A DNA stretch of 64,000 bases from Oscillospiraceae bacterium. GTDB lineage: Bacteria > Bacillota > Clostridia > Oscillospirales > Oscillospiraceae. The stretch covers positions 1-64,000 of the forward strand of contig JAFTGD010000038.1 in the NCBI GenBank assembly GCA_017458065.1. The letters are read 5' to 3'. The first letter of the stretch is position 1. Every line of letters starts with the position of its first letter. Position numbers and translations under genes: made by a program. Positions 45,265-56,252 of this stretch are shown here, piece after piece. A model generated the notes under the pieces. It was not told where the DNA came from and ran no database searches. It saw only the letters and a list, made by a program, of their open reading frames with translations.

Positions 45265-45315
45265 ACTACAATTTCTCTCCGCTCTGTGCGGGGAGGAATC
45301 TGTTCGGAGGCATTT

Positions 45316-46008
45316 ATGGTTCAGATGACAGATGTCACGAAGATCTACGACAGCAGCAGCACGGTTGCGCTGGACGGGATCGACCTGACGATCAACGAAG
45401 GTGAATTTGTCTTTCTCGTGGGCCCGTCCGGCTCCGGGAAGACCACATTGATGAAGCTTATCACCGGCGAGGTTCGTGCAACCGCCGGTGAGATTGTTGT
45501 CAACGATTTTGACATGGTCAAGATCAAACGCCGCAAGCTTCCCAAGGTCCGGCGTACGCTCGGCGTGATCTTTCAGGATTACCGCCTGATCGAGAATATG
45601 ACCGTCTACGACAACGTCGCCTTTGCGATGCGCGTTGTCGGCGCAAAAGGGAAGAACATCGCAAAGCGCGTGCCCTACGTGCTGGAGCTGGTTGGCCTCG
45701 AGGGGCGCGAGAAGCGTTTCCCGAACGAGCTCTCCGGCGGCGAGCAGCAGCGTGTCGCCATTGCCCGCGCCCTGGTCAACAATCCCCGCATGATCGTCGC
45801 GGACGAGCCGACCGGCAACCTCGACCCGGTTCGCAGCCTGGAGCTGATGCTCCTCTTTGAAAAGATCAACGAGATGGGCACGACCATTCTGGTTGTCACT
45901 CACGAGAAGGAACTGGTCAACGCCTTTTCCAAGCGTGTTATAACCATTGACGACGGTCACGTTGTCAGTGATGACGGAGATGGGTATTACAGCTATGAGC
46001 TTGAGTAA
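45316..46008 (+). CDS. ftsE: Cell division ATPase FtsE
   Basis: The cytosolic ATPase of the FtsEX complex that switches on septal peptidoglycan hydrolases. Walker [10 protein letters not shown], signature [15 protein letters not shown] and Walker [14 protein letters not shown] are intact. GGAGG lies 5 bases before the ATG at 45316; the longer frame from 45286 lacks support. Length 230 residues. The end overlaps ftsX by 14 bases. Confidence 0.95.
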
Positions 46009-46882
46009 AGGAGCATATCTGATTCGCGAGGGCTTCCGGAGCATCAAGACTCACAGCTTCATGTCCTTTGCCTCGGTGACGATTATCACCGCCTGCCTGA
46101 TCATCATGGGCAGCATCACGCTGCTCTCCCTGAACATCGACGCTCTGATTGCCGACCTTGAGCAGCAGAACGAGGTCGTCGCCTTTGTCGATGAGAGCAT
46201 TGTCGACCCGTCCGCGGCCGCCGCGCTGCAGCCCAGCCTCCTCGGCGTAGAGAATGTACTCTCGGCCGATTTTGTCTCACGCACCGACGCCATGGACAGC
46301 TTCATGAGCAAGTATGACGACCGCCTCATGGAGGGTATCGACGAGTCAGTCTTCCGCCACAGGTTTGTTATCCACCTGGTGGATATCTCCCAGATGGCGG
46401 ATACCAAGACCCAGCTTGAGGCCATCCCGGGCATCGTCAAGGTGAACGCCCATATCGAGTACGCCAACCGCTTTGTCCGCGTGCGCAACATCGTGAGCGT
46501 GGTGTCCCTGATCCTGACGGTCATCCTGTTCTTCGTGTCCTTCTTCATCATGTCCAATACCATCAAGCTGACCACCTACGGCCGGCGCGAGGAGATCGCC
46601 ATTATGAAGATGGTCGGCGCTACCAACGGCTTTATCCGCACCCCCTTTGTCATTGAGGGCCTGATCCTCGGTCTGCTGGGCGGCCTTTTCGGCTTCCTCG
46701 CCGTCTGGGGGATCTATACCGTCCTCAACAGCAGTCTGCTGGACACCCTGACCGGCAGCTTTATTTCCCTCGTCCCCTTCAGAACCGTACGGCTTCCGCT
46801 CCTTCTGTCCTATCTCGGGGTCGGGATTCTGATCGGTGTGTTTGGCGGCGTCAACGCCATTCGCAATTATCTGAAGGTGTGA
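45995..46882 (+). CDS. ftsX: Cell division membrane protein FtsX
   Basis: A four-helix membrane protein with a large extracellular loop (about residues 50-165) between the first and second helices, the part that contacts the hydrolase. It begins YLIREGFRSIKTHSFMSFAS, typical of Firmicutes FtsX, and has MSNTIKLTTYGRREEIAIMK after helix two. The ATG at 45995 lies inside ftsE. Length 295 residues. The PcsB-like hydrolase gene begins 4 bases after its stop. Confidence 0.95.
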   Translation: MSLSKGAYLIREGFRSIKTHSFMSFASVTIITACLIIMGSITLLSLNIDALIADLEQQNEVVAFVDESIVDPSAAAALQPSLLGVENVLSADFVSRTDAMDSFMSKYDDRLMEGIDESVFRHRFVIHLVDISQMADTKTQLEAIPGIVKVNAHIEYANRFVRVRNIVSVVSLILTVILFFVSFFIMSNTIKLTTYGRREEIAIMKMVGATNGFIRTPFVIEGLILGLLGGLFGFLAVWGIYTVLNSSLLDTLTGSFISLVPFRTVRLPLLLSYLGVGILIGVFGGVNAIRNYLKV

Positions 46883-46886
46883 TCCG

Positions 46887-48200
46887 ATGAAGTTTCGTAA
46901 AAGAGTCATTTCCATCATCGCCATCATCATGGCGATCCTGATGGCGCTGTCACTGGTGGCGAGTGTGCTGCCTTCGGCTTTTGCCATCTCCCAGAGCGAC
47001 ATCGACGCTCTGAAGAAGAAGAAAGAAGAAATCTCCGCCCGCGTCGCCGAGGCCGAGGCCTATGTCAACACCCTGAAGGATGAGCAGGCCAACGTCCTCG
47101 ACCAGAAGGCCGCCCTGGAGGAGAAAAACGACGCCGCCAAGGAAGCCCTCGCCATCGTCGCGGAGGAGATCCTGATGTATGACGGCATCATCGAGGAGAA
47201 GACAGAAGAGCTCAACGAGGCGCTGAACAGGGAAGCGGTCCAGCTGGACAAGTACCGCGTCCGCGTCCGCGCCATGGAGGAGAGCGGCGGATACAACATC
47301 CTCTCCGTCCTCATGAGTTCCGGTGACTTTAACGAGTTTCTGACGGCCCTCGACGATATGGAGAAGATCATGACCTCCGACCGCGATCTGGAGGACCTCT
47401 ACATCGCTGCCCGCGAGGAGAGCGAGCGTGTCAAGGCCGAGTACGAGGCTGTCAAGACCGAGTGCGAGGAGAAGCAGGACGGTCTCCGCGCCGAACAGGC
47501 CGGCATCGAGAAGCAGATCGAAGAGACCGAGAAGGATCTTGCCGAACTGGAGGACCAGCTCGAGGCTGCTGTCGCCGAGTATGAGGAATGGCAGTCAGCC
47601 GAAGAGCAGGCCGCGCAGGAAGTCCTCAACATGATCGCCGCCTATGAGCGCCAGAAGGAAGAAGAGGCCGCCGCGAGAGCCGCGGCACAGGCCGCAGCCG
47701 CAGCTGCCGCTGCGCAGCAGGCCGGGTCCGCCGAGGGCGGCGAGAGCTCCGGAGGGCTGAACCCCGGCGCGGCTTCCGGTACGGGCAGCTTCATCTGGCC
47801 GGTGCCCTGCAGCACCCGTATCACCAGCCGCTTCGGCTATCGTACTGACCCCTTCACCGGCGAGCAGCGCTACCACAGCGGCATCGACATCGACGGCTAC
47901 GGCAATGAGGGCGGCGCCATCATCGCGGCCGACGGCGGCACGGTCGTCACGGCCACCTATAACGACGGTTACGGCAACTACATCATCATCGACCACGGAA
48001 ACGGCTACCAGACGCTGTACGGCCATATGTCCGGTCTGGCTGTCGGCTCCGGCGCCACGGTGTCCCAGGGCCAGACCATCGGCTACCTCGGCGCCACCGG
48101 CCGTGCTACCGGTACCCACTGCCATTTCGAAGTTTTCATCAACGGTAGCAGGACGGACCCCGCCGGCTTCTTCTCCGGCCTGTCCTATTATAATTGCTAA
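46887..48200 (+). CDS. PcsB/EnvC-like murein hydrolase (M23 peptidase with coiled coil)
   Basis: An exported hydrolase partner of FtsEX. A signal peptide ends near VLPSAFA (residue 32). A long coiled coil (about 35-255) follows, then an Ala/Gly-rich linker, then an M23/LytM domain with the zinc ligands H330-x3-D334 (HSGIDID) and H411-C-H413. The intact zinc site suggests an active DD- or DL-endopeptidase, unlike EnvC, which only activates amidases. The 4-base gap to ftsX indicates one operon. Confidence 0.92.
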   Translation: MKFRKRVISIIAIIMAILMALSLVASVLPSAFAISQSDIDALKKKKEEISARVAEAEAYVNTLKDEQANVLDQKAALEEKNDAAKEALAIVAEEILMYDGIIEEKTEELNEALNREAVQLDKYRVRVRAMEESGGYNILSVLMSSGDFNEFLTALDDMEKIMTSDRDLEDLYIAAREESERVKAEYEAVKTECEEKQDGLRAEQAGIEKQIEETEKDLAELEDQLEAAVAEYEEWQSAEEQAAQEVLNMIAAYERQKEEEAAARAAAQAAAAAAAAQQAGSAEGGESSGGLNPGAASGTGSFIWPVPCSTRITSRFGYRTDPFTGEQRYHSGIDIDGYGNEGGAIIAADGGTVVTATYNDGYGNYIIIDHGNGYQTLYGHMSGLAVGSGATVSQGQTIGYLGATGRATGTHCHFEVFINGSRTDPAGFFSGLSYYNC

Positions 48201-48293: not shown

Positions 48294-49541
48294 ATGAGAC
48301 GGGTTCTCCAACGCATGTTTGGCGGCGTAGGGATCTTCATCTCACGCCTGTTTAGCCTCGGGATACCCCTCTGGTTCGTTATTTTGGTCGTGCTCGGCTC
48401 TCTGTTCGGCACCCGGATCCTGACCCGCAATCAGGTGATCAACGAGGTCGGCGGCAAGGACGACTACGACGAGGCCATGCGCTATATCGAGATCAAGGAC
48501 ATCATCGATGAGAAGTACATCGAGCAGGTCGACCGCAAGAGCATGGGCTATTCGGCCGCAACCGCCATGGTCTCGGGTCTCGGCGACGCCTGGAGCAGCT
48601 TCCTCACCGACGACGAGTACCGGACCTATCAGCTCTCGTCCTCCAATGAGTATTCCGACATCGGCATGAGCCTTGTGAAGGATTCCAGCGGCGGCTTCCA
48701 GATTGTCACTGTCTATCCCGATTCTCCCGCGGCCCGCTCGGGCATCGTTATCGGCATGGTCATCACCGCCGTCGACGGCGAGCGCGTCTCCGACTATACC
48801 ACCGACGAGGTCCGTACCCTGATCCGCTCCAAGATGAGCGGCAAGTTCAACCTCTCGATCGTCGGCATGTCCGATCCCCTCGAGATCGACGCCACCAGCG
48901 TCAACTCCGAGACCATCACTTACCGTCTGGAGAAGACGGGCGCCGGCTATATCCAGATCCACAACTTTGAGGCCGGCAGCGGCCAGGCCTGTATTGACGC
49001 GGTGGAGTACCTTCTGTCCCAGGGCGCCGTGGCGCTGGTAATAGACGTCCGCGATAACTCCGGCGGGCTGACCACCGAGGCCGCGCTCTTTCTGGACTAC
49101 CTGCTTCCCGCAGGCCGCCTGTTCTCGGATATCAGCAAGGACGGCACCGAGCGCGTCACCGAGTCCGACAGCATGAGCCTTGAGCTTCCCATGGTTGTCC
49201 TCATCAACGCCGGCAGCTTCCGCGAATCCGAGCTCTTCGCCGCCGTCCTGAAGGATTATCACTGGGCCACCCTCATCGGCGAGCCCACCACCGGCAACAC
49301 GCGCACCCAGGAGACCATTGTCCTCCATGACGGAAGCGCGCTCCGCCTCAGCACCCACAGCCTGCTCTCGCCCAACGGCACCGACATTGCCGCGGTCGGC
49401 GGCGTGGTCCCCGACATGATCGTCTTTAACCGCGACGCCTCCGCCACCGGCACCACCGAAGGCACCACCGGCGGCGAAGAGGGCACGGCCAGTACCTCTG
49501 ACGACACCCAGCTCATGGAGGCGCTGCGCTTCCTCAGCTGA
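48294..49541 (+). CDS. S41-fold (CtpA/CtpB-like) protein, predicted catalytically inactive
   Basis: An N-terminal membrane anchor (about residues 22-40), a PDZ domain (about 105-200, with VYPDSPAARSGIVIGMVI) and an S41 C-terminal fold are all recognisable. At the active site the usual Ser of SxSAxE is Arg310 (NAGSFRESEL) and the general-base Lys is Asn335 (TTGNTRTQ). The 25-residue spacing and the following Gln339 match the Ser430/Lys455/Gln459 set of E. coli Prc, so the alignment is firm. It is likely a pseudoprotease acting as a scaffold near FtsEX-PcsB. GGAG precedes the ATG. Confidence 0.85.
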   Translation: MRRVLQRMFGGVGIFISRLFSLGIPLWFVILVVLGSLFGTRILTRNQVINEVGGKDDYDEAMRYIEIKDIIDEKYIEQVDRKSMGYSAATAMVSGLGDAWSSFLTDDEYRTYQLSSSNEYSDIGMSLVKDSSGGFQIVTVYPDSPAARSGIVIGMVITAVDGERVSDYTTDEVRTLIRSKMSGKFNLSIVGMSDPLEIDATSVNSETITYRLEKTGAGYIQIHNFEAGSGQACIDAVEYLLSQGAVALVIDVRDNSGGLTTEAALFLDYLLPAGRLFSDISKDGTERVTESDSMSLELPMVVLINAGSFRESELFAAVLKDYHWATLIGEPTTGNTRTQETIVLHDGSALRLSTHSLLSPNGTDIAAVGGVVPDMIVFNRDASATGTTEGTTGGEEGTASTSDDTQLMEALRFLS

Positions 49542-49633: not shown

Positions 49634-50128
49634 ATGGCAACTTCGAATTCCAACCGCTACAAAATGAGCCAGGAGCGCCTGGACGAGCTCAAGAAAGAGC
49701 TCAACTACATGGAAACCGTCCGTGAGAAGGAAGTTTCCGAGCAGATCAAGGAAGCCCGCAGCTTCGGCGACCTGTCTGAGAACAGCGAGTACGACGAGGC
49801 CAAAACCGAACAGGGCAAGCTCTACTCCCGCATCGCCGAGTACAAGGACCTGATCGAGCACGCCGAGATCGTCGACAATGTCGACCACAATCTCCCCAAG
49901 GACGCCGTCACCCTCGGCAGCATCGTCGTGGTGAAGGACCTGGACGAGGATTTTGAAGATAAGTACGAGATCGTCGGCTCCCAGGAGGCCAATCCCCGTG
50001 AGGGCAGGATCTCCGATGACTCTCCCGTCGGCAAGGGCCTGATCGGCCATCGTGCAGGCGAGCAGGTCACCATCGCGGTCCCCTCCGGCGAGATCCGGAT
50101 CGAACTCATCTCTGTAGAGAATCTTTGA
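49634..50128 (+). CDS. greA: Transcription elongation factor GreA
   Basis: Rescues backtracked RNA polymerase by stimulating transcript cleavage. The N-terminal coiled coil with the acidic tip ([17 protein letters not shown]) and the C-terminal FKBP-like domain ([20 protein letters not shown]) are complete. Length 164 residues. GGAGAGGATCAGTA precedes the ATG. lysS follows after 7 bases, as in several Firmicutes. Confidence 0.96.
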
Positions 50129-54082: not shown

Positions 54083-55057
54083 CTATTTGGTAAGGCAGAC
54101 AGTAACGGCGCTGTCAAAAAGGCGGGTAAAGCCCTCCATCACGGTGTTATCGGCAATAAGCGCCTGCATTTCATCGTTTACGCCGATATCATCGAAAAGA
54201 TAGCTGTAATCGCCCCAGCTAACGGCTGAATCAACAACGAGGCCGTGAACGGCAAAGATATTTTCTTCAAATGCCGACTGCTCCTCGGCGGTAAGCCCGC
54301 ACCACGCCTCAGCGAGATTCACTTTCAGCTCGGAGGGATCGTTAGACCAGATAAGATAGTCACTTGCAAGCTTCAGCGCATCGTAGGCTGCCCGCGCCCT
54401 TTTAAGGAGAGAGCCGCTCTCACCGCTATGCAGGTTGGCTATGGGCTTCAAAAAGCTCTCAAGCAGCACGTCGGCGCTGGGCGCGTAGTTCGTGAGAAGC
54501 GCAAATCGCAGATCCACGTCGCTCTCCTCCTTGCCGTCTTCCCAGCGTAGCTTGCCGTCTTCAAAGTGTAAGCGCCCTGCTGAATTATCCCATTGGAGCT
54601 GGCGCACCTCGTCCGCGTCCTCGGAAAGCGTGACCGTATATCTTGCGCCGTCGGTATATTTAATGCTGTCGCTGACCTCGTCGTAGCTCGCGGTCATATC
54701 CCACTCGGCAAACTCCGCGTAACTGCTGCTCCAGTGGATCGTCACACTGTAAACACCGTAACGCTCTGTGGGGACGACGGTCATATAGGCGCGCTGAGAA
54801 TATTCGTCGCTCCACTGGCCGACAAACTTATCTCCGCCGAAACCCGAGTCCTCCGCTGCATCCGGATTTCCGGCGGGCTCCGCCGGAGGATCCTCGCGCG
54901 ACGTCGTTTCGCCCGTTGCGGTTTCGCTCGGCGCGGTTTCGTCGGGCTTGTCGGCGGCGGAGGTCGCTTCGGTTTCAGCGACCGGCGCGCTTCCGCAGGC
55001 GGCCAGCAAAAGCATGAGCGCCGTAAAAATCGCAAATGCAATCAGTTTCTTTTTCAT
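54083..55057 (-). CDS. Hypothetical lipoprotein (324 residues)
   Basis: A lipoprotein signal (KKKLIAFAIFTALMLLLAAC) ends in lipobox LAAC-G. A Thr/Glu/Pro-rich linker of about 60 residues follows, then a globular domain starting FVGQWSDEYSQRAYMTVVPT. GGAGG lies 5 bases before the ATG at 55057. The signal peptide and leader closely resemble those of the next lipoprotein gene, but the mature domain differs. It is the last gene of a three-gene minus-strand series driven from about 56.3 kb. No known domain recognised. Confidence 0.8.
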   Translation of the reverse strand: MKKKLIAFAIFTALMLLLAACGSAPVAETEATSAADKPDETAPSETATGETTSREDPPAEPAGNPDAAEDSGFGGDKFVGQWSDEYSQRAYMTVVPTERYGVYSVTIHWSSSYAEFAEWDMTASYDEVSDSIKYTDGARYTVTLSEDADEVRQLQWDNSAGRLHFEDGKLRWEDGKEESDVDLRFALLTNYAPSADVLLESFLKPIANLHSGESGSLLKRARAAYDALKLASDYLIWSNDPSELKVNLAEAWCGLTAEEQSAFEENIFAVHGLVVDSAVSWGDYSYLFDDIGVNDEMQALIADNTVMEGFTRLFDSAVTVCLTK

Positions 55058-55109
55058 TAAATCCTCCAAAGTTTTTCTGCTGTTTTTGCGCGGCTTGCCA
55101 GCATAGGAA

Positions 55110-55616
55110 TTACCGGAAAATGCTGCCAGAGATGCTGCTGTCCTGGGGGATGCTCCAGACAAACCCGCCGTTGCCGTCCGTACTGAGGCTGCCGGTGGCC
55201 CAGGAATACTCTGTGGTAGCGTCCTGGACTTCGCCGTTCTCGTAATAGGCTGTTGTAACCTTGAAGCAGTCGGAGAAATTCAGAACGCCGTCGCTGTCAA
55301 AGGTGCCGCTGAAGGTCCAGGTTGTGTTCTCGCCGGGGTTGAAAGACCAGTCGACTGAAATGTCGTAATGGTCAGGGCTACCGCTGATGTGCATCTCGCC
55401 GCGCCCGCTGTTGGTCTCCTGGTAGACACCGCTGTAATCGGTGGAATCCGTCACAGGGGAATTCTGCCCATTGTCCTCCACGGGAGTCCCGACGGTCTCT
55501 GTGACCTGCGGCTCGGCAACGGGCGCTTCGGTTTTAGCGACCGCCGAGCTTCCGCAGGCAGAGAGCGAAAGCGAGAGCGCCATAAAGATCGCAAAAGCAA
55601 ACAGTTTCTTTTTCAC
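55110..55616 (-). CDS. Hypothetical lipoprotein, tandem-duplicate family copy 1
   Basis: Signal peptide with lipobox LSAC, then a linker and a beta-rich domain of about 109 residues from TDYSGVYQETNSGRGEMHIS to SISGSIFR. Start is the GTG at 55616 with GGAGG 5 bases upstream; the TTG at 55628 is in frame but is part of that RBS region. The mature domain is about 90% identical to the upstream copy (55670-56010), and the gap between the genes is also similar, so they arose by tandem duplication. Function unknown; surface exposed. Confidence 0.82.
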   Translation of the reverse strand: MKKKLFAFAIFMALSLSLSACGSSAVAKTEAPVAEPQVTETVGTPVEDNGQNSPVTDSTDYSGVYQETNSGRGEMHISGSPDHYDISVDWSFNPGENTTWTFSGTFDSDGVLNFSDCFKVTTAYYENGEVQDATTEYSWATGSLSTDGNGGFVWSIPQDSSISGSIFR

Positions 55617-56010
55617 ACTATCCTCCAATGGTTTTCTTTTTTTTCTATGCGGGCCTGCCCGCGTATAAGTTACCGAAAAATGCTGCCGGAGACGCTGCTA
55701 TCCTGGGGGATGCTCCAGACGAACCCGCCGTTACCGTCTGTGCTGAGGCCGCCAATGGCCCAGGAATACTCGGTGGTAGCCTCCTGGACTTCGCCGTTCT
55801 CGTAATAGGCTGTTGTAACCTTGACGCAATCGGAGAAGTTCAGCGTGCCGTTGTTGTCAAAGGTGCCGCTGAAGGTCCATGTAGTGTTCTCGCCGGGGTT
55901 GAAGGACCAGTCAACCGAAATATCGTAATGGTCGGGGCTGCCGCTGATGCGCAGATCGCCGCGCCCGCTGTTAGTCTCCTGGTAGACGCCGCTATAATCG
56001 GTGGGAGTAA
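55130..56010 (-). repeat. Tandem duplication of a lipoprotein domain
   Basis: The segments coding TDYSGVYQETNSGRG to SGSIFR occur twice, at about 55110-55436 and 55670-55996, with about 11 differing residues of 109. The short gaps downstream of each copy (the start regions of the next gene) are also alike. Confidence 0.85.
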
Positions 56011-56252
56011 GCGCGGGTGTGACAGCCAGACCACTGCCTGCCCGAAAAACGCTGCCGGATACAGAGCTGTATTCCTTGTCTGTGCGTCCATCAGGACTGA
56101 CGAAACGCCACACGATGCCGGAGGCGTTATCCGCTCTGGCTACGAACATGCAGGAGTCGCCCTCACTGATTCGTCGTATTTGGGATACTGCCACAGGCTG
56201 TCAAAAGGAGCATTACGCCTGACAGAAGTACACAGCTGGTATTCTTCTTCAC
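55670..56252 (-). pseudogene. Frameshifted lipoprotein, tandem-duplicate family copy 2
   Basis: The GTG at 56252 (AGGAAA upstream) starts a normal lipoprotein signal, KKNTSCVLLSGVMLLLTAC, but that frame stops at SIPNTTNQ. The mature part continues in another frame from about 56190, running SEGDSCMFVARADN to the 109-residue duplicated domain ending SVSGSIFR. One small indel between about 56170 and 56200 would join the two. As it stands, the domain could only be made without a signal from the internal GTG at 56194. Confidence 0.8.

Follow-up and report, generated by a model that had tools for sequence, protein, structure and literature searches.

In a stretch of 64,000 nucleotides from an Oscillospiraceae bacterium (GenBank assembly GCA_017458065.1, contig JAFTGD010000038.1, positions 1 to 64,000 of the forward strand; hereafter the window), an open reading frame (ORF) of 415 codons plus stop at 48294..49541 (+ strand, as are all features of this locus) encodes an S41/PDZ protein of the C-terminal processing protease (CTP) fold that, judging from its residues, is not catalytic. 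We call this protein the query and its genome G000; other genomes and loci compared carry G and L numbers, and families f numbers. The genus in question appears to be Candidatus Limivicinus, most genomes of which derive from rumen and gut samples. Loss of S41 catalytic residues extends through nearly the whole genus and through parts of six other families, a broader phenomenon than a lineage-specific paralogue, and such repeated loss with the protein kept at its locus points to a non-proteolytic role. We tentatively favour, at a little under an even chance, a role as a PDZ-based regulator or tether of the hydrolase activated by FtsEX, whose effect would be exerted by binding.

Several features place the query in this fold. 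A Pfam search returned Peptidase_S41 (PF03572) with 120.4 bits at a cut-off of 24, delimiting an S41 core at residues 217-376 (48942..49421), as well as PDZ_6 with 36.6 bits at a cut-off of 27, which together with matches to the PDZ fold puts the PDZ domain at residues 120-185 or thereabouts (48651..48848). The subfamily cut-off of NCBIfam TIGR00225 was missed (167.2 vs 218.6 bits). The predicted single-chain model has a CtpB-like tertiary fold, and its helix 26-52 (48369..48449), a hydrophobic stretch judged by eye, is a probable N-terminal membrane anchor; the PDZ and S41 domains would then probably lie on the outer side of the membrane, tethered to it.

Our alignment has 131 rows, counting both the query and L001, its own copy (132 distinct sequences were kept; shorter fragments were dropped). 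Aligned with the solved chains of Pseudomonas aeruginosa CtpA—7rpq, which keeps the Ser, and the S302A mutant 7rqh—the query has Arg310 (49221..49223) in the column of the catalytic Ser and Asn335 (49296..49298) in that of the Lys, and keeps Gln339 (49308..49310), the third member of the triad, as do 91/91 genus rows and 39/39 rows from outside the genus. In place of a Ser-Lys-Gln triad there is, in other words, Arg310-Asn335-Gln339. Among the residues of the PDZ domain, Arg178 (48825..48827; Arg in 91/91 genus rows and 16/39 outside) is one that we take, from the CtpA alignment, to be the probable counterpart of the substrate-sensor Arg168 of CtpB. Asp122 (48657..48659), where 39/39 outside rows have Gly and 48 of the 91 genus rows have Asp, lies in the carboxylate-binding loop and, as read from the alignment, would match CtpB Gly113, the first Gly of that loop. 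The residue spacing of 25 and 29 equals that of Ser309-Lys334-Gln338 in CtpB, as given in excerpts of the study of that protease (PMC3808539). Fold, substitutions, spacing and the retained Gln had all been proposed in a preliminary description of this DNA, and all of them stand. Loss of catalysis in the query is therefore well supported as far as residues can tell, and no nearby Ser or Lys that might stand in for the lost dyad is apparent from the conserved residues.

The substitutions are far from peculiar to the query. A homologue without internal stops was found in 90/101 genus genomes, a few of the copies being clipped by contig ends, and 89 could be read at both positions (in G034, a contig end breaks up the copy). 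At positions 310 and 335 these carry Arg-Asn (22), Gly-Lys (15), Gly-Asn (11), Ala-Ser (9), Ala-Lys (9), Gly-Arg (6), Arg-Ser (5), Ser-Arg (3), Ala-Met (3), Ser-Lys (3), Gly-Met (2) or Lys-Asn (1). The catalytic Ser is thus lost in 83/89 and both residues in 59/89, with 24 copies lacking the Ser alone and three the Lys alone. The preliminary description had suggested asking whether Arg and Asn are conserved; they are not so genus-wide, this state being confined in the tree to the query's subclade. A private loss in one genome, be it by chance or through an assembly error, was rejected because the nearest relatives in other metagenome-assembled genomes share Arg/Asn. Outside the genus, Ser and Lys are both present in 38/39 rows, the exception being L198 with Ala and Lys, and nearly all family copies read from outside the genus retain the two residues while occupying the same ftsE-ftsX-M23-S41-greA-lysS locus.

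The genus tree comprises 109 rows; it omits L001, the genus fragments L071, L117, L118 and L119, and 17/39 outside rows, four of them deliberately skipped and 13 not selected. Across this whole tree, parsimony counts six changes for Ser and five for Lys, and Dollo parsimony nine and eight losses, respectively. A two-state likelihood model favours loss at the base of the genus with later reappearance, although this model is crude and its outgroup is non-monophyletic after rooting.

The genus copies form one clade, and the query is the sole S41 gene that a Pfam S41 search found in its own 96% complete assembly; the term ‘paralogue’ used in the preliminary description therefore does not hold. The single match likewise led us to reject an active S41 elsewhere in this genome that might compensate for the dead one. 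Other, distant S41 proteins do occur in some genus members. The 11 genus genomes without a match to the query protein were checked via ftsX. In G016, G020 and G091, which have no S41 match, the contig breaks off about 1.1 kb or less from the M23 gene. The G012 locus (L213) reads ftsE-ftsX-M23-greA-lysS with an unrelated ORF of 254 amino acids and no S41 between M23 and greA; since its ftsX is only 46% identical, this contig may come from another organism as a contaminant. No ftsX match above 40% identity was found in the remaining seven genomes lacking an S41 match.

What remains of the protein is under purifying selection. The ratio of nonsynonymous to synonymous substitution rates (dN/dS) lies between 0.02 and 0.27 for 25 of 26 genus pairs (the other was not computable) and between 0.05 and 0.20 for five pairs of intact homologues, values that are rough because several pairs are near saturation in dS. 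Of 52 columns conserved to at least 95% outside the genus and checked for retention inside it, 22 are invariant across 91/91 genus rows, and retention is lowest at five, namely at 250 (Phe to Ile, Leu or Val), at 311 (the residue after the Ser), at 310 (the Ser), at 365 (Leu to Ile) and at 335 (the Lys). Around the former active site, conservation has arisen that is specific to the genus: Glu311 (49224..49226), at a position that is Ala in 38/39 outside rows, occurs in 85/91 genus rows, Thr336 in 87/91 and Arg351 in 83/91, which suggests a pocket that was remodelled and did not simply decay. With its scaffold intact, the protein thus fits the earlier proposal of a pseudoprotease that is retained at its locus.

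Degeneration of the S41 gene at this locus also occurs elsewhere in the order. An order-wide sample outside Limivicinus, comprising 128 genomes from 23 families, contains degenerate copies at the same locus in 25 genomes from six families, a share that is not to be read as a rate because the final 20 genomes were picked in part for degenerate S41. Strict lineage specificity, as first proposed, is thus not supported. Every genome read has a degenerate copy in f10 (8/8), f23 (6/6) and f26 (6/6), as compared to 3/8 in f15 (one of them with the Ser kept and Phe for Lys), 1/4 in f16 and 1/3 in f18; none were found in the other 17 families of this sample, f1 included. At the G334 (f23) and G329 (f16) loci, two M23 matches lie beside the dead S41, as in most of Limivicinus. 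An order-wide tree (128 rows, including selected rows from Limivicinus and f1; simple model and quick search) gives ten changes of the Ser state and eight of the Ser-Lys pair, Limivicinus included. The changes in Limivicinus, f15 and f18 are well separated, and f10, f16, f23 and f26, which lie close together, may share one loss; as the deep groupings of these four are weakly supported, any tally of independent losses is tentative.

Two arrangements in these families deserve mention in their own right. The f10 genomes carry a tandem of S41 genes at the ftsEX-M23-greA locus, the first without the catalytic Ser and the second with Ser and Lys intact, in 8/8 cases (L344, L345, L346, L351, L352, L353, L354 and L355). 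In f26, L350, L360, L361 and L364 have a Cys nucleophile with the Lys kept, possibly a Cys-Lys variant of S41, and these four copies might still be enzymes.

The gene neighbourhood agrees with the position beside ftsEX-pcsB given in the preliminary description. Upstream of the query lie ftsE (45286..46008; TIGR02673 at 275 bits, above cut-off), ftsX (45947..46882; Pfam FtsX and FtsX_ECD above cut-off), the listed TTG start of which overlaps ftsE and is probably not the real one, which should lie further in, and a gene for a PcsB-like hydrolase with coiled coil and M23 domain (46887..48200). The latter keeps the metal-site motifs HxGxD and HxH intact and is the sole M23 match found in the query genome. 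Downstream follow greA (49634..50128), a conserved neighbour, and lysS, both assigned by sequence with no family search run. Among the loci listed, linkage of S41 to ftsE, ftsX and an M23 gene, i.e. to an FtsEX-PcsB system, is conserved. Further along the window, on the - strand at 54083-56194, three adjacent ORFs resemble lipoprotein-type paralogues; a nearly identical segment (SGVYQETNSGRG...ISGSPDHYDISVDW) is common to two of them, and the third is more distant.

Most listed genus loci with enough upstream sequence have two M23 genes between ftsX and S41; the query's clade has a single one, as do the basal G065/G074 pair and most loci outside the genus. Sorting into first, second and single M23 by position is imperfect: L015 was counted as single, yet a longer locus shows two. 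Many of these proteins extend about ten residues beyond the domain into conserved tails; in the query locus, this tail (48162..48197) ends SYYNC and is a candidate PDZ ligand. Tails of first-position proteins end in Cys in 46/64 cases, with YYNC the commonest (22). Of the 78 second-position or S41-side proteins, 60 have a terminal (A/S)G(V/E/G) (DAGV 26, DAGE 20, DSGG 7) and 7 have YYNC. Tandem PcsB-like genes with conserved but different tails are seen, for example, at L133, L136, L101 and L061. The YYNC end is present in 9/9 listed members of the query's clade, the query included. By comparison, eight of these genomes yielded six other M23 proteins, five of which end near the domain; one (G065) is longer.

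These tails give the favoured role a possible molecular form, in which the query would act by binding instead of cutting. Its PDZ domain would capture the end of a peptide, for which the conserved C-terminal tail of the adjoining M23 hydrolase is the likeliest candidate, and the former protease ring would keep the hydrolase near FtsEX, so that this enzyme is restrained, positioned or presented and not degraded as cell-wall hydrolases are by an active CTP in P. aeruginosa. Precedents come from excerpts of two studies: the CtpB PDZ domain binds C-termini, preferring Y/F/W-V/A but also accepting Val-Pro-Ala, and still binds them in the S309A mutant (PMC3808539), and P. aeruginosa CtpA degrades two M23 hydrolases, with MepM being trapped by the S302A mutant (PMC6050968). 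Given both mutants, a dead CTP gripping an M23 tail would, by analogy, be mechanistically reasonable. The regulation or scaffolding of the hydrolase proposed in the preliminary description is accordingly plausible, with the conserved hydrolase C-termini as concrete candidate ligands.

A number of observations weigh against this role. The tails ending YNC or AGE are unlike the Y/F/W-V/A or Pro-Ala ends of CtpB ligands, and CtpB treated an acidic tail, Asp-Ser-Glu, as non-cognate (both according to the excerpts of PMC3808539). Asp in place of the PDZ loop Gly could weaken binding of a free carboxylate in the query. The YYNC end occurs in 5/10 single-M23 loci and not in the other five, the S41-side M23 protein of G008 is tail-less and ends DPMSFF, and outside the genus only 8/34 M23 proteins end in Ala, four of them as APDA. 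Among the loci listed, L185, L193, L197 and L359 have no M23 gene; the first three, from outside the genus, have an intact S41 with no M23 match between it and ftsX, and in G371 (f23) the dead S41 also has no M23 match next to it, which makes an M23 neighbour dispensable. Finally, G004, G035 and G098, i.e. 3/89 genus genomes, keep both Ser and Lys. Relatives of this kind had been named beforehand as evidence that would speak against a pseudoprotease, and they do exist; they do not, however, make the query an active enzyme, because they are scattered over the tree and their residue after the Ser is the genus-specific Glu. Extending the tail-reading role to the whole order—the locus S41 mainly as a non-proteolytic PDZ adaptor reading the hydrolase tail, with cutting dispensable and repeatedly lost, which would leave dead proteins alone (Limivicinus, f23, parts of f15 and f26) or dead/live tandems (f10)—is possible but rather doubtful.

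The chief alternative is a non-catalytic protein with a target other than M23, e.g. as a trap or chaperone for exported proteins, as a partner of FtsX alone or in sporulation signalling, which we regard as a conceivable but unlikely explanation. CtpB acts in the sigma-K pathway of Bacillus subtilis (PMC3808539, excerpts), of 61 genus genomes, 47 have a Spo0A match and 39 (38 above cut-off) one to the SpoIVB-type S55 protease, and the four loci without an adjoining M23 match would fit as well. However, the query genome and its close relatives G010, G015, G028 (only 57% complete) and G053 keep the protein although a search for Spo0A and S55 (SpoIVB) yielded no match in any of them, and gene order links S41 to ftsEX and usually to M23. 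Nor does loss of the Ser track loss of sporulation: 31/61 genus genomes lack the Ser and have both Spo0A and S55 matches, and sporulation loss was rejected as the cause of catalytic loss for the same reason.

That peptide cutting persists through a different catalytic arrangement is improbable. Retention of Gln339 and of Ser/Thr at 308, together with the Cys nucleophile and Lys in 4/6 f26 copies, which puts an alternative nucleophile elsewhere in the order, would be compatible with it, but neither position 310 nor 335 of the query is catalytic, Ser/Thr308 is equally common in intact homologues and thus no gain, and Lys214, the only Lys with gained conservation, is far off in sequence. In CtpB, moreover, Q338E alone abolished activity (PMC3808539, excerpts). 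Mixed oligomers, in which a dead subunit serves as a decoy and tunes an active S41 protease, would suit the dead/intact pair of all eight f10 genomes, yet the search of the query genome turned up no second S41, making this very improbable for the query. Least credible, to the point of being barely tenable, is incipient decay into a pseudogene under relaxed constraint: residues 310 and 335 do differ between clades and scattered rows retain Ser and Lys, but dN/dS is well below 1, and the invariant scaffold columns, the new conservation around the old site and the stop-free homologues in most genus genomes all argue the opposite.

Dead S41 proteins such as the query offer a natural separation of binding from cutting, and the favoured tether role makes a simple prediction, namely that the hydrolase tail binds the PDZ domain. 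They would also render the annotation of these genes as peptidases misleading in many gut bacteria. We found no open-licence paper on bacterial S41 pseudoproteases or on a physical link between FtsEX and CtpB.

Among known systems, B. subtilis CtpB has Ser309 and Lys334 and cleaves SpoIVFA (PMC3808539, excerpts), whereas the query is without both residues. The closest solved relatives by sequence are the chains of P. aeruginosa CtpA, which together with LbcA has cell-wall hydrolases of the M23 and NlpC/P60 types as targets (PMC6050968, excerpts). CtpA, however, is an active protease with the lipoprotein activator LbcA; the query lacks the dyad. Structure matches also revealed the S41-like fold of the modules of the interphotoreceptor retinoid-binding protein, an animal ligand carrier that is not known as a protease and, unlike the query, has no link to cell division. 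Within the FtsEX system itself, Escherichia coli EnvC, a degenerate M23 protein, resembles the query in being a degenerate enzyme used as a regulator, but the query is an S41 protein and its M23 neighbour keeps its motifs. CspC and CspA of Clostridioides difficile, which are of the subtilisin type, differ in both protease family and pathway, the latter being germination; they share with the query, as far as excerpts of the literature on them go, that they are bacterial pseudoproteases, in their case at work in signalling.
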